DNA from: Deltaproteobacteria bacterium
GTDB lineage: Bacteria; Desulfobacterota; Desulfobulbia; Desulfobulbales; SURF-16
DNA: 37,008 nt
Assembly (NCBI GenBank): GCA_016219175.1
Contig: JACRCD010000010.1
Coordinates: 1 to 37,008 of the forward strand
Direction of reading: 5' to 3'
Of the stretch, positions 12,723 through 17,253 are shown piece after piece. The number at the start of each line of letters is the position of its first letter. Within the stretch, counting starts at the first letter, position 1. Under the pieces are notes generated by a model. That model ran no database searches and was not told the DNA's origin. It saw nothing but the letters and a program-made list of their open reading frames with translations. The translations under genes and the position numbers were made by a program.

Positions 12723-13172
12723 TTATGGCGTCAATCTTTCGATGGCAATGACAATGCCCTGCACGAACTCCACCCGGGCCACGGGATAGATCTCTTCCGT
12801 ATTGCGGTCCACCCAGACGTTGCGGTAGACGATGGAGCTCCTGCCCCTGTCGTCGTGCACGCGGACCGGGAGACTCATGCGGTCCGTCTGTCTGAGCAGT
12901 CTGCGGTTGGTGTAGGTCCAGACGGTGGCTTCCCCTTTATCTGTGGTGCGGATGAAGGTCTGGTCCGGGGAGCCCCAGGAGAGGTTGACCATCTCCTCGT
13001 TGAAACCGATGTCGATCTGGCCAAGGCTGATCTGCTCCTGAATGACCGGGCTGAAGTCGGCAAACAGTTCCTGGTTTTCGGCAATCCGTTGTTCGCGCAG
13101 GTGCTGGGCCGACATGCAGCCGGCCAGAGTCAGGCTGGCAATAAACGCAAAGATAAAGAAAATGTGTCTCAT
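12723..13172 (-). CDS. small lipoprotein, unknown function
   Basis: A 149-residue exported lipoprotein. The start at MRHIFFIFAF has GGGAGG upstream; the frame runs 52 codons further back into the preceding gene. The signal peptide ends in the lipobox LTLAGC, so Cys19 should be acylated. The mature part contains NLSWGSPDQTF...VWTYTNR, reminiscent of SmpA/BamE-like outer-membrane lipoproteins (a short lGxPd...W.Y pattern), followed by beta-rich sequence. It lies 58 nt after the MtrA-like selenoprotein gene on the same strand and may be the third gene of that unit. The functional link is inferred from position only. Confidence 0.75.
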   Translation of the reverse strand: MRHIFFIFAFIASLTLAGCMSAQHLREQRIAENQELFADFSPVIQEQISLGQIDIGFNEEMVNLSWGSPDQTFIRTTDKGEATVWTYTNRRLLRQTDRMSLPVRVHDDRGRSSIVYRNVWVDRNTEEIYPVARVEFVQGIVIAIERLTP

Positions 13173-13230
13173 CCTTATACCTCCCGCCGTCATGTGGATG
13201 TCCGGCAATGAAGGGTGATAACGAAATGCA

Positions 13231-14394
13231 TCAGCAGGTTTCTCCCTGGGCCCTGTCCTGGACGTATGGTGTGCCTGTCGCCAGGGAGTGCTCCGCCTTG
13301 GCGAGTTCCCGTCCGAGGTAGGCGGCATGATCCAGCCGGGAGACCAGCTTCATCTCCAGGAGGGTGGAGCAGATGGTGGCCGCATCCTGGCCCGCGACGA
13401 TATGCGCCAGCTGCCCGTTGTTGCGGTAATGCTCCACGTGCAGCGGGTTGGTTTTGCCCTGATCGGCCAGGATGACAAAGTAGCCGGCCGGATCAAGATG
13501 GAGCCGTTTTGCCGGACTTGCTTCGATGGTATCGACAAGGCGCACGCGCAGGCCATGGCTAAAGAATTCCGGCCGGGGCTCGGCCAGGGAAAGAATCGTC
13601 TTCTCGATCACGTTTTTGTCTACGCAGCCGGTCAGATCATGCACGGTTATCTGTTTCCGGAAATGTTCTGCCTCGGCCGGCAGGATATTTTTCAGCACGG
13701 GCCGGGCCCCGGCGGCCTCGATAATCCCGCGGCTTTCGTTTATGCCATGCATCTTTAATTTGATTAGGGCGTCAGCCGGCCGGTGCCCGGCTATCTCATC
13801 CCCGGTGATGACGAGATGCCGGATAAACGGGTTGCTGATCAGGTTTTTCACCACGTGCTCAACCCCGATGTTTTCCGTGGTCATGCGGCCGATGAGGCAG
13901 ATAGCGTTTGACCGGGCCGCAAAATCGAGCTCTTCGTAAGGGGCCTGGCCCAGCAGCAGCACGGCAATCCACGCCCGGGGATGCAGGACCAGGTAGTCGC
14001 CCGGCTGCACCGGCCATGACTCCGGAACAAAATCCGCCGGGGTGATGGTGGTGATGGAGGCCGGCTCAATCTCCTCCTGCTCCATGCTGGTAAGGAGATC
14101 CATCTTTTCATTGAAAACGTTGAAGGCCGGCACGGGCAAACAGGGGCTGCACCCCAGTCATTGGTGGAGATTGAGCGGGTTCGCCCCGGCAAGCCAGGAC
14201 TCGAAATCGCTTCTTATGCCGGAAAGCTCGGGCGTCCCGTGGGACCCGCCGATGTCGTTGATCCCGGCCAGAATGGCGGCCATCATATCCTGGTGGAGAC
14301 AGGCGCAGGTGCGGCAGCGCTCAAGTCCCATGATCTTGGTAAACTCCCGGTGGGCCGCTCTGATTGCGTTAATCTTTTCCGCGCGAATGTCCAT
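13231..14394 (-). CDS. MtrA-like corrinoid-protein homologue, predicted selenoprotein (Sec79)
   Basis: Two frames, 14394-14161 and 14157-13231, are in the same reading frame and separated only by one TGA (14160-14158). Read through as Sec they give 387 residues. Residues 1-78 include CRTCAC (27-32). The TGA falls in HQ-U-LGCSPCLP, giving U79, C82 and C85, a CxxCxxC-like cluster motif with Sec in first place. From about 130 the protein resembles subunit A of tetrahydromethanopterin S-methyltransferase: TENIGVEHVVKN, SNPFIRHLVITG, GHRPADALIKLK. The EH histidine (about 180) is a candidate corrinoid ligand. The C-terminal 90 residues look like the DUF4346 tail. GAGGA precedes the ATG, 11 nt after the methyltransferase stop. 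No start codon with a ribosome site exists after the TGA (only TTG at 14139), which argues against two separate genes. Confidence 0.78.
14119..14160 (-). promoter_or_regulatory. Sec79 UGA codon and weak SECIS candidate
   Basis: The UGA is at 14160-14158. A possible imperfect hairpin spans +17 to +39 after it (14141-14119), with a CGUGCC loop whose GU is at +25/+26. A second GC-rich hairpin, GGGG-UGCAG-CCCC, starts at +3. Neither is as clean as the elements of the neighbouring gene. Confidence 0.4.
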
Positions 14395-14405
14395 GAATCC
14401 TCTTT

Positions 14406-15320
14406 TTAAAGGGCTGCCGGTTTTCCACCCTTGAACAGGGCGCCGACTGTATAGGGCGAGGTGCGAAAACCCGTCAGGCCGGCCCAGGTAACGTCAATAA
14501 AACCGGCCTCCTTCATGAGCTGGAGCTGATCCCCGACCGGGACCGTGCCGCCGACTCAGTGGGACCAGGCTTCCGGGCTGCCTGTCATGTGGGGTGGCAG
14601 TTCCGTTTCCAGCACCACGTCGGCAAACCGCAATACGCCGCCTGGTTTTAAAACGCGGTAGATCTCCCGGAAGCATTGCTGCTTGCAGGGGGAAAGGTTG
14701 ATCACCCCGTTTGAGATAACCACATCAAAAAAGCTGTCCGCATAAGGCAGGTTTTCCGAATCCACCCGTCTGATCTCAAAATTTGTCAGCCCCGCGCAGG
14801 TGAGATTGACCCTGGCCCGTTGCACCATTTTTTCCGTCAGATCGACGCCGTAGGTCATGGCCTTTTCACCCGTGAGCAGACTCACGACATACATGTCAAA
14901 GCCTGCGCCGCAGCCGAAATCAAGCACCAAGGAGCCGGCCCGGATAGCGCCCAAGGAGAAGGGGTTGCCGACCCCGCAGAAGCTTTCCAGCAGAGCGGGA
15001 TGGGCTTTGGCAATGACCGCCGCGGCATAGCCCAGTTTCTCCGCGCCCTCCCGGCCGGTGGGATAAAGAAATTCGCCGGCGGGCGAAAGGGAGACCTGAT
15101 CATATCTGGCGCGGATCGCCTCTCGGATTTTTGCTGGGTCATGAACCGTCTGGGCGCCTGGCCCGGCGGTTGGCGTGATGCTTGCGGCCGATGAGCCGGG
15201 AGGGGTGGGAAAGGGGACCTTGTCCCAGGCGGAGGGCGTCCGGCAGCCGACGGCGCCGGTTGAAGGGGGTCAGCCCTTGGCCTGTGCCGGTTTTGTATCC
15301 TTATTCCCATTCCAAATCAT
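14406..15320 (-). CDS. ArsM-like SAM methyltransferase, predicted selenoprotein with Sec17 and Sec255
   Basis: One reading frame from ATG 15320 to TAA 14406 contains 304 codons with two internal TGAs (15272-15270 and 14558-14556). Visible parts: N-terminal thiol-type segment KG-U17-PPST...VGC26; linker; RYDQVS; FCGVGNPFSLG; SAM motif DFGCGAGFD (134-142); GVDLTEKM; NGVINLSPC; YRVLKPGG; then AWSH-U255-VGGT followed by a normal end, MKEAGFIDV...ALFKGGKP. In arsenite methyltransferases a conserved Cys occupies the place of U255 (C-[IV]-x-G-[AG]). The usual GCGNP Cys is shifted (FCGVGNP), so the substrate may not be arsenite. Between the first TGA and residue 123 there is no ATG, GTG or TTG, although conserved sequence begins well before that. 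This supports readthrough. The ribosome site (GAGGGGGG) is far from the ATG. Confidence 0.78.
14528..14558 (-). promoter_or_regulatory. Sec255 UGA codon with SECIS-like hairpin
   Basis: The UGA is at 14558-14556. GGUCCC (+12 to +17) pairs with GGGAUC, allowing one G-U (ending at +28), with loop GGUCG at +18 to +22. The E. coli fdhF SECIS has a GGUC loop at nearly the same distance. Hairpin position is 14544-14528. Confidence 0.65.
15240..15272 (-). promoter_or_regulatory. Sec17 UGA codon with SECIS-like hairpin
   Basis: The UGA is at 15272-15270. CCGGCGCC (+11 to +18) pairs with GGC-U-GCCGG (+22 to +30) to form eight base pairs with a single bulged U and a GUC loop at +19 to +21. Position, loop G-U and bulged U match the bacterial SECIS model. 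Hairpin position is 15259-15240. Confidence 0.65.
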
Positions 15321-15348
15321 ACGTTCAACTTTGTCCCCCCTCAATAAT

Positions 15349-15376
15349 GGTGGTGCACGGGCTCATCGTGCCCACC
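15349..15376. repeat. interspersed palindromic repeat, short copy
   Basis: GGTG-GT-GCACG and CGTGC-C-CACC form a hairpin around GGGCTCAT. The CACGGGCTCATCGTG core matches the second hairpin of the longer copies. It sits between the 67-residue gene and the methyltransferase gene, just upstream of the latter's start. Confidence 0.55.
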
Positions 15377-15407
15377 GGAAAGGATTTGATCGTCCCCCCG
15401 GCTTTAT

Positions 15408-15611
15408 CTAAAACGGTTTCCTGTTGCTGTTGCACTGGCTGGCCTGGCTGATGGCGTTGTCCAGATGATGAAAGAAGTTCAACGCCTCCCTGTTGCCCGC
15501 ATCCTTTTGTAACTGCGTCTCATAAATGGAGAAAAGTTTTGTCAAAACAGTCAGGACATCATCATCAGCCAGGGAACCGATATCCTCCCAGATATCGTTC
15601 GGACTCTTCAT
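15408..15611 (-). CDS. small conserved hypothetical protein (67 residues)
   Basis: A 67-residue acidic, helical cytosolic protein beginning MKSPNDIWEDIGSLADDD. The start is set by GGGAGGAATATT just upstream; the frame is open further but overlaps pckA. It ends SQCNSNRKPF with a single Cys. There is no enzyme motif. The sequence reads as two or three amphipathic helices (VLTVLTKLFSIYETQL; REALNFFHHLDNAIS), suggesting a small binding or adaptor protein. It lies 37 nt after pckA on the same strand and 87 nt before the methyltransferase ATG, so it could belong to either transcript. Similar small proteins are familiar from Desulfobacterota genomes, without known function. Confidence 0.7.
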   Translation of the reverse strand: MKSPNDIWEDIGSLADDDVLTVLTKLFSIYETQLQKDAGNREALNFFHHLDNAISQASQCNSNRKPF

Positions 15612-15648
15612 AATATTCCTCCCGGCGTTGCGCCGTTGCTGCCATTCC

Positions 15649-17253
15649 TCACAGGGATGGCCCGGCCTGGCGGATTTCCCTGGTGGTCTGATCGGCAAAC
15701 TGCTGAAAATTTTTGGCGAACAAGCCCGCCAGTTTTTCAGCCTGAGCCCGGTAGGCATCAGGGCTGGCCCAGGTGTTGCAGGGATTTAAAACTTTATCCG
15801 GCACATCCGGGCAATGCAGGGGTATTTGCAGGCCGAAAAAAGGTTCCGTTTCCGTGGCGACGTCGTCAAGCTTGCCGTTTAAGGCAGCGTTGACCATGGC
15901 CCGGGTATGGGCGATGCTCATGCGGGTGCCGATGCCGGCCGGTCCGCCGCTCCAGCCGGTATTGATGAGCCAGACCCGGGCGCCATGCCGGTCGAGTTTT
16001 TGGCCCAGCAGCTCCGCATAGCGCATGGGGTGCATGGGCATGAAGGGCGCCCCGTAGCAGGCGCTGAATGCCGGGGTGGGCTCGGTGACCCCGCGTTCCG
16101 TGCCCGCCACCCGGGCGGTGTAGCCCGAGATGAAGTGGTACATGGCCTGTTCCCTGGTGAGGCGGGCAATCGGCGGCAGGACGCCGAAGGCATCGGCGGA
16201 CAGGAAAATGATCGTTTTCGGATGTCCTCCCATGCCGCTTGTGCTGGCGTTGGGAATGGCGGAGATGTGGTAGGAGCCGCGGGTGTTTTCCGTGAAGGTG
16301 TCATCATCCAGATCCACCCGGCGGGTACAGGAATCCAGGCTGACGTTCTCCAGGATGGTGCCGAAGCGTTTGGTGGTGGAATAGATTTCCGGCTCGGCCT
16401 CCGGGGAAAGACGGATCAGTTTGGCATAGCAGCCGCCCTCGAAGTTGAAAACGCCGTTGTCGCTCCAGCCGTGTTCGTCATCGCCGATCAGGGTGCGGGC
16501 GGCGTCGGCCGACAGGGTTGTTTTGCCGGTGCCGCTGAGTCCGAAGAACAGGGCGGTCTCCCCGGCCGGGCTGATATTGGCCGAGCAGTGCATGGGCAGG
16601 ACGCCTTTGTGGGGCATCAGATAATTCATGACGGTGAAAATGGATTTCTTGATTTCCCCGGCATAGCTGGTGCCGCCGATGAGGATCAGTTTCTGTTTGA
16701 AGTTGATGATGACGAAGGTCTCGGAATTTGTACCGTCCAGGGCCGGGGAGGAGTGGAAGTGCGGGGCGTCGATGACGGTGAAGGCCGGGATGTGTTTTTT
16801 CAGGGCCCCTTCATCGGGTTGAATGAACATATTGCGGGCAAACAGGCTGTGCCAGGCGTACTGGGTAATGATCCGCACCGGCATGCGGTGATCCGGATCC
16901 GCCCCGGCAAAGCAGTCCTGCACATAGATATCCTGGGTCTGCAGATGCAGGGTCATGCGTTTATGCAGCTGCTCGAAACTGGCTTTGGAGATAGGGGGGT
17001 TGTTGGCCCCCCACCAGATATCCTTTTTGGTCGAAGACTCTTCCACAATAAACTTGTCCCGGGCTGAACGGCCCGTATGGTGCCCGGTCCGCACGACGAT
17101 GGGCCCGAGGTGGGACAGCCGGCCCTCGCCCCGGGTGAGAATTTTTTCGTAGAGTCTGGAGGAGGGCAGGTTCCAGAAGACCTCGTTGAGATTGGTCAGT
17201 CCGTGATTATCCAGTCCATAGCTGGTATGATTGGAACATTGATTATTTTTCAT
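15649..17253 (-). CDS. pckA: phosphoenolpyruvate carboxykinase (ATP)
   Basis: A 534-residue cytosolic enzyme interconverting oxaloacetate and PEP with ATP, the entry to gluconeogenesis. The start at MKNNQCSNHTSYG has GGAGAATACGC upstream. Signature sequences are in order: RTGHHTGRSARDKF near the N-terminus, GGTSYAGEIKKSIF, P-loop GLSGTGKTTLSAD, metal site IGDDEHGW, FNFEGGCYAK, and the late adenine-binding region NTGWSGGPAGIGTRM. Length is normal for the ATP-type family. In an autotrophic or acetate-using anaerobe it would feed sugar synthesis, in keeping with the PFK-2-like and glgC genes elsewhere in the window. Confidence 0.96.
   Translation of the reverse strand: MKNNQCSNHTSYGLDNHGLTNLNEVFWNLPSSRLYEKILTRGEGRLSHLGPIVVRTGHHTGRSARDKFIVEESSTKKDIWWGANNPPISKASFEQLHKRMTLHLQTQDIYVQDCFAGADPDHRMPVRIITQYAWHSLFARNMFIQPDEGALKKHIPAFTVIDAPHFHSSPALDGTNSETFVIINFKQKLILIGGTSYAGEIKKSIFTVMNYLMPHKGVLPMHCSANISPAGETALFFGLSGTGKTTLSADAARTLIGDDEHGWSDNGVFNFEGGCYAKLIRLSPEAEPEIYSTTKRFGTILENVSLDSCTRRVDLDDDTFTENTRGSYHISAIPNASTSGMGGHPKTIIFLSADAFGVLPPIARLTREQAMYHFISGYTARVAGTERGVTEPTPAFSACYGAPFMPMHPMRYAELLGQKLDRHGARVWLINTGWSGGPAGIGTRMSIAHTRAMVNAALNGKLDDVATETEPFFGLQIPLHCPDVPDKVLNPCNTWASPDAYRAQAEKLAGLFAKNFQQFADQTTREIRQAGPSL

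Follow-up and report, generated by a model that had tools for sequence, protein, structure and literature searches.

The window, by which we mean the whole 37,008-nucleotide stretch of deltaproteobacterial DNA analyzed here, carries on its minus strand a gene (14406..15320) that runs from an ATG at 15320 to a TAA at 14408-14406 and forms a single frame of 304 residues if UGA is read as selenocysteine (Sec, U). Its translation, MIWNGNKDTKPAQAKG-U-PPSTGAVGC...EAWSH-U-VGGTVPV...FKGGKPAAL, holds two such codons. One is codon 17 (Sec17; 15270..15272, minus strand), which lies in an N-terminal arm of the form KG-U-PP...C, and the other is codon 255 (Sec255; 14556..14558, minus strand), which lies in the motif W-x-x-U-x-G-G. 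Both UGAs had been reported in the first-pass annotation, which gave no strand. A Pfam scan identified a Methyltransf_31 domain (E = 5e-32) beginning at gene residue 128 (residue 135 of P0001, the protein used for the domain scans, which begins seven codons before the ATG), and orthologues are present in the order. A table-11 listing of open reading frames recovers just a 132-amino-acid piece of this gene, with a TTG start (14556..14954), the same fragment that had been foreseen for automatic annotation. Comparison with relatives identifies the product as a SAM-dependent methyltransferase of the ArsM fold, in which two selenocysteines are predicted, with a SECIS-type hairpin for each. Eleven bases downstream lies a second predicted selenoprotein gene (13231..14394, minus strand), encoding a protein with an MtrA domain (PF04208, E = 1e-29) and a pterin-binding DUF4346 domain (E = 1e-22).

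Of 257 genomes searched in the order, 168 gave matches, and among the matches listed, which extend down to 1.6e-42, every one contains at least one internal UGA. We took 40 loci from the upper part of the match list, 35 of which passed a motif screen requiring the core UGA. With the window these make 36 loci; one (G239) is cut at a contig end, leaving 35 with an intact 5' end. Reading upstream in frame from the fold, the first stop encountered is a UGA in all 35, with no case of UAA or UAG. This count of stop kinds was used in place of the stop-free stretch from the first UGA to the fold, which we dropped as evidence because the choice of the first UGA guarantees it. Sec17, Cys115 (SFCGVGNP; 14976..14978, minus strand), Val117 and Sec255 are invariant in the 35 aligned proteins, the constancy of Sec255 (36/36 loci) following from the requirement of the screen for the core UGA. 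Pro19 and Gly205 (14706..14708, minus strand) are each conserved in 34 of 35, with Ala in the one exception at the latter site. UGA also appears to be the ordinary terminal stop in 12 of the 35 genes. The five loci that did not pass the screen were read separately: G118 and G163 show GG-U arms (two of them in G163), G144 and G130b show none, and G021 is without its 5' part. An orthologue was found in Desulforhopalus singaporensis, placed by NCBI in the Desulfobulbales. The 321 records obtained from a plasmid collection are distant, none reaching at least 60% identity, and no Cys form of the N-terminal arm was seen among the relatives compared. Two in-frame stops could in principle signal a sequencing error or a decayed pseudogene, but the core UGA occurs in 35 other genomes and the arm UGA in 34 others, and the hairpins that follow them covary. 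We rejected this explanation on the conservation of the UGAs across genomes and give it next to no probability.

Downstream of each UGA is a SECIS-like hairpin. That of Sec17 (15240..15259, minus strand) presents a GUC loop at +19 to +21 after the UGA, and that of Sec255 (14528..14544, minus strand) has a loop that begins at +18. Helices of six and seven pairs were named from the sequences first and counted afterwards. Across the relatives, 82.4% of cells are paired at site 1 and 93.3% at site 2, with covariation scores of 0.367 (shuffled, 0.181) and 0.298 (shuffled, 0.168), respectively. At both sites the observed score, the percent pairing and the tally of doubly changed cells were each matched by none of 500 shuffles, counts that are not probabilities because the shuffles do not preserve relatedness. 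Sliding the partner by one to three columns lowers the covariation score at both sites. Of the five covariation measures, two do not stand out: the count of pairs showing a double change (as high in 314 of 500 shuffles at site 1 and in 8 of 500 at site 2) and that of further pair types (as high in 274 and in all 500, respectively). A fixed hairpin rule is satisfied by 25 of 35 first sites and 33 of 36 second sites, more than expected by chance, vs. 413 of the 3464 control UGAs elsewhere in these loci. The first-pass annotation had placed a hairpin with its loop at +18/+19 after each UGA. Both hairpins are present and covary, and that of site 2 in the window follows the rule, but that of site 1 in the window fails it, although it folds at -13.4 kcal/mol, because a bulge splits the stem into 5 + 3 pairs. 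The loop register of site 1 varies among genomes. RNAalifold alone recovers three pairs at site 1 (-0.68 kcal/mol) and five at site 2 (-6.44 kcal/mol), and an Rfam scan of positions 13000..16000 gave no match at E ≤ 1. Because the hairpin sequence also encodes the AGGR-like segment after Sec17, conservation of this segment may reflect the RNA.

If only Sec255 were functional, UGA 1 could be a selenium-sensing leader or a true stop, with the enzyme starting downstream or by reinitiation. Such a reading would suit the position of Sec17 outside the catalytic fold and the otherwise poor conservation of the arm, as well as the occurrence of an ATG, GTG or TTG between UGA 1 and the fold in 20 of the 35 genomes. 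However, the other 15 genomes, the window among them, have no such start, as had been proposed for the window in the first-pass annotation, and an ATG between the first upstream stop and the fold is found in just 5 of the 35 genes with an N-terminal arm vs. 18 of 19 relatives without one. For these 19 genes, the other Sec-ArsM genes taken from the phylum, the closest stop upstream is a UGA in 11, a UAG in six and a UAA in two, and the ATG that follows it in 18 of them indicates that they have no N-terminal arm. The unbroken use of UGA as the nearest upstream stop in the 35 genes, the Pro at +2 (34/35), which is encoded outside the hairpin, and the presence of a similar GG-U-x-P arm at the C-terminus or in the interior of other Sec-ArsM proteins also speak against a leader. 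An ATG lies exactly 13 codons ahead of UGA 1 in 25 of the 35 genes, 19 of which have a Shine-Dalgarno-like motif there. A stop or leader at codon 17 was rejected on the kind of the first upstream stop, the few ATGs beyond it and Pro +2, and we regard it as very unlikely.

The genome from which the window comes encodes selA, selB, selD and tRNA-Sec (selC), with one match each over the cut-off, so that the sel genes on which the first-pass annotation would have staked its claim are all in place. Its selD (contig C88, 161448-162374) contains one in-frame UGA, and SelD is therefore probably a selenoprotein too. Among the 36 genomes, selA was detected at E ≤ 1e-80 in 32. It was not found over the cut-off (TIGR00474) in G127, G128, G142 and G184, the last of which has a weak partial match, nor in G118; two of the four such genomes in the 36-genome set are single-contig, as is G118. 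All five have selB over the cut-off and genes with in-frame UGAs. The archaeal-type SepSecS (TIGR03531) was found in none of the five, and no selA-like open reading frame was noticed by eye near selB in G118, G127 and G128. The conservation of the orthologues, the covarying hairpins, the complete Sec machinery and the Cys that canonical ArsM has at the core site together uphold the proposal of two selenocysteines in an ArsM-like enzyme, and we consider the prediction of two Sec residues in the gene product very likely, on comparative grounds, to be correct.

The arm around Sec17 is poorly conserved and rich in Gly and Pro, usually with a Cys nearby. With the start codons used, a Cys lies within -9 to +13 of Sec17 in 32 of the 35 proteins and is absent from this range in three; the positions are -7 (15), +9 (9), -1 (6), +13 (3), -9 (1) and -6 (1). 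Cys density is 34 in 757 residues around Sec17 vs. 6 in 739 over the remainder of the arm. Related arms are found elsewhere in the family. A search of 395 genomes of the phylum gave matches in 116, from which 20 further loci were taken and 19 could be read as Sec-ArsM (G281 could not). By eye, five of the 19 end in a Sec tail (CEPGGTUKPK twice, CAPGGAUAPK, CPPGGAUEPK and CPPSSPGUVRK), five have a further UGA after an AhpD-like stretch (the end of G543 being PGGTUPR), and three combine a DUF2284 domain with a linker that contains GG/GA-x-U-P repeats, two or three in number (for example, PGGGUPTG). These three DUF2284 fusions (L159, L160 and L161, from G484 and G524) would, with two or three linker repeats, have three to four Sec per protein. 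The remaining six have no arm. No U-x-P-K type tail occurs in the 35 proteins with an N-terminal arm. In a tree of 62 cores (midpoint-rooted for drawing, with rows for 11 loci absent because the pattern did not recover them), 37 N-arm proteins (the 35 plus G118 and G163) group with the truncated G239 and the armless G378 (support 100/95), and 17 proteins with a C-terminal tail, AhpD, DUF2284 or no arm form the neighboring group (100/96). The six armless proteins, one of which (G378) falls inside the N-arm clade, indicate that the arm is not obligatory for the core, and its placement at the C-terminus or inside a fused domain in related enzymes makes it look like a movable accessory of a Sec-based core. 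Two further loci show other forms of the arm. Locus L089 of G163 has, at about 147-318, an N-terminal arm with two UGAs (GGGUGIKSAGSC...AGGGUSLPV) and may encode a triple-Sec ArsM. On the Ilyobacter polytropus plasmid pILYOP01 (L179, 868-1443), the methyltransferase WP_013388987.1 is annotated as ending with a UGA, which in the alignment falls on the Sec-ArsM core; continued past this UGA, the frame finishes in YCKPKD, which resembles the UxPK tail with Cys in place of Sec.

In the active site, alignment to CmArsM (4fr0) and its relatives, with positions counted along the alignment, equates Sec255 with Cys224, Gly205 with Cys174 and Val117 with Cys72; Cys115 lies two residues before the last of these. 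The core UGA likewise falls on a Cys of 5evj and 5eg5. This agrees with the earlier suggestion that the second UGA occupies the conserved Cys of arsenite methyltransferases, and with the expectation that homologues would have Cys or Sec at the aligned site, which is conserved in relatives. In human AS3MT, Cys156 and Cys206, the latter equivalent to the Sec255 position, are given as arsenic ligands and Cys61 as a proposed third, and the first methylation is stated to require Cys32 and Cys61 (PMC3877260, in part); a Cys32-Cys250 disulfide is also described for this enzyme (PMC4211708, in part). With Val and Gly at the other two ligand positions, the double-Sec enzyme keeps one canonical arsenic-ligand position, as Sec. 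Where the first-pass annotation had cast Sec as the nucleophile of an enzyme for arsenic, selenium or another soft element, Cys206 of AS3MT serves as a ligand, and both the handling of arsenic and a nucleophilic role would be conjectural here. We also inspected the second ArsM in 16 genomes chosen from those with a second ArsM match listed. It has Cys at all three positions and the N-terminal Cys motif in 15. In the genomes sampled, a more canonical ArsM thus accompanies the double-Sec enzyme. The exception is a side observation in its own right: the second ArsM of G010 (L195, contig C11) has a UGA at the Cys224 position (YSGUITGA) and canonical CC, GCGNP and SNC motifs, and would be a single-Sec ArsM beside the double-Sec one.

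The Val and Gly at the ligand positions and the all-Cys ArsM in 15 of 16 genomes point to a specialized methyltransferase for a soft element, which is probably what the double-Sec enzyme is. It could also be a plain arsenite methyltransferase in which Sec has replaced Cys to speed arsenic methylation. Its closest solved relatives are indeed arsenite/arsenic methyltransferases, and Table 1 of a 2026 review (PMC13188914) marks an arsenite methyltransferase with one Sec (UxxG) as experimentally verified. Yet two of the three pocket cysteines are absent, 15 of the 16 sampled genomes have an all-Cys ArsM besides, and where the second ArsM has Sec at position 224 (G010) it has kept the other cysteines; we consider a plain arsenite methyltransferase rather unlikely. 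Our preference, held by a modest margin of belief, is for methylation of a soft element with the arm as a mobile ligand or reductant. The enzyme would methylate As, Sb, Se, Te or a similar element, held in the pocket by Sec255 and the invariant Cys115. The arm, through its Sec and Cys, would fold over the substrate as a mobile third ligand and/or an internal reductant, and might thereby take over the job of the N-terminal and pocket cysteines of canonical ArsM that are absent in this lineage. An AlphaFold model built on a two-row alignment (the window protein and L002) had a mean pLDDT of 36.6 and was discarded as too poor.

The adjoining MtrA-DUF4346 gene contains a UGA (14158..14160, minus strand) within the motif LHQ-U-LGC-x-PC (LHQULGCSPC), about which the first-pass annotation was silent. 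Of the 257 order genomes, five have a homologue at E ≤ 1e-15, with the UGA present in each, and a homologue on a Paraburkholderia plasmid has Cys at the Sec site (CLGCEIC, aligned by eye). Relative to MtrA itself (tetrahydromethanopterin S-methyltransferase subunit A), the protein shares the MtrA domain and has in addition an N-terminal Cys/Sec stretch (ULGCxPC); it scores 266 bits against the MtrA model NF002128, for which the cut-off is 568. The methyltransferase and this protein might form one pathway, passing methyl groups between a SAM-made methyl-metalloid and a cobamide/pterin carrier in demethylation or assimilation. Here 11 bases separate the two UGA-containing genes, which are also neighbors in G226, and the His of the EIAGH motif aligns to the corrinoid ligand of MtrA, which we take to be His84. 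However, of the five genomes with the MtrA-like selenoprotein, the two genes adjoin only in that of the window and in G226, and in two others (G016 and G017) the double-Sec enzyme has only remote matches, G016 also being without a selA match; we judge a shared pathway improbable. On the Planococcus plasmid pA30H1 (L128), a DUF4346 protein is encoded beside an ArsR-family regulator and a heavy-metal P-type ATPase, which hints at a role in metal resistance. Clustering of the 510 open reading frames around the 36 loci, with functions assigned by eye for clusters common to at least three genomes, showed no widely common partner, and no ars gene was seen by eye in those clusters. Recurrent neighbors are a PEP carboxykinase upstream (five genomes), a metal-type P-ATPase (seven) and a TVP38-like protein directly downstream (four).

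The occurrence of the Sec arm at opposite ends of, or inside, one enzyme family suggests a partnership between arm and active site. A broader picture can be drawn, speculative and on balance doubtful, in which a movable Sec arm recurs in Sec-ArsM enzymes, N-terminal in a Desulfobulbales-centered clade and C-terminal or internal, in up to three copies, in its sister group. The arm Sec would close on the active-site Sec, the two forming a di-selenolate site. Its substrate would be a soft element outside the reach of the all-Cys ArsM of that cell, and a neighboring Sec cobamide protein would, in some genomes, pass methyl groups to or from pterins. Because plain calling of open reading frames leaves a 132-residue piece and splits the next gene, what is possibly a selenium-dependent locus for methyl transfer is easily overlooked. 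It offers a tractable system in which to ask what a cell gains from two Sec residues in a methyltransferase while keeping an ordinary ArsM.

Compared with known systems, the protein shares with canonical ArsM/AS3MT (NF008823; CmArsM, 4fr0) the fold, the SAM motif and the Cys224/Sec255 position. It differs in having Val for Cys72 and Gly for Cys174, so that the canonical trio of Cys at 72, 174 and 224 reads Val, Gly, Sec, in the absence of the N-terminal Cys motif, and in a score of 179 bits vs. a cut-off of 263. Most selenoprotein families have one Sec, and those with two or three are called a small subset in the 2026 review, Table 1 of which already includes double-Sec ArsM families (PMC13188914, in part). 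Among the 119 families of that table, no N-arm methyltransferase appears by name, Haft & Tolstoy 2025, cited there for the UXPK-star family, being left outside this comparison, and no MtrA selenoprotein appears; literature searches by term, together with passages of PMC9312934 and PMC12013277, brought up neither. The two-Sec methyltransferase MduS of the same table is set apart here by its listed CxxU motif only: in all 35 proteins there is no Cys three residues before Sec17, and the residue three before Sec255 is Trp.

The three best NCBIfam models are named double-selenoprotein families (NF047649, NF041536 and NF041537), all below cut-off for this protein. Each aligns only from gene residue 59 or 60 onward (66/67 of P0001) and so leaves the first Sec uncovered, and no model in the NCBIfam library scanned matched the N-terminal Sec arm arrangement. 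The methyltransferase/UXPK-star double selenoprotein (NF047649) has in common with our protein the Sec-ArsM core (UxGG, FCGVGNP, SNG) and an arm of the C..GG-x-U-x-P-K type, but there the arm is a C-terminal tail and here it is N-terminal. The window protein, which has no C-terminal U-x-P-K tail, scores 266 bits and three other N-arm proteins 273-285, vs. a cut-off of 460 that none of the 257 order genomes passes and that all three C-tail relatives scanned, of the five read, exceed (500-521 bits). The AhpD and DUF2284 arsenite methyltransferase selenoproteins (NF041537 and NF041536) likewise combine the Sec core with an extra Sec, but theirs lies in or after a fused AhpD or DUF2284 domain; our protein has no such Pfam domain and ends after the methyltransferase, scoring 265 bits vs. 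510 and 248 vs. 575, respectively. One DUF2284 relative scanned passes NF041536 (716 vs. 575), and one AhpD relative falls just under NF041537 (500 vs. 510). Double-Sec ArsM proteins are, on these comparisons, already known and named, and the N-terminal Sec arm is likely a new arrangement among them.
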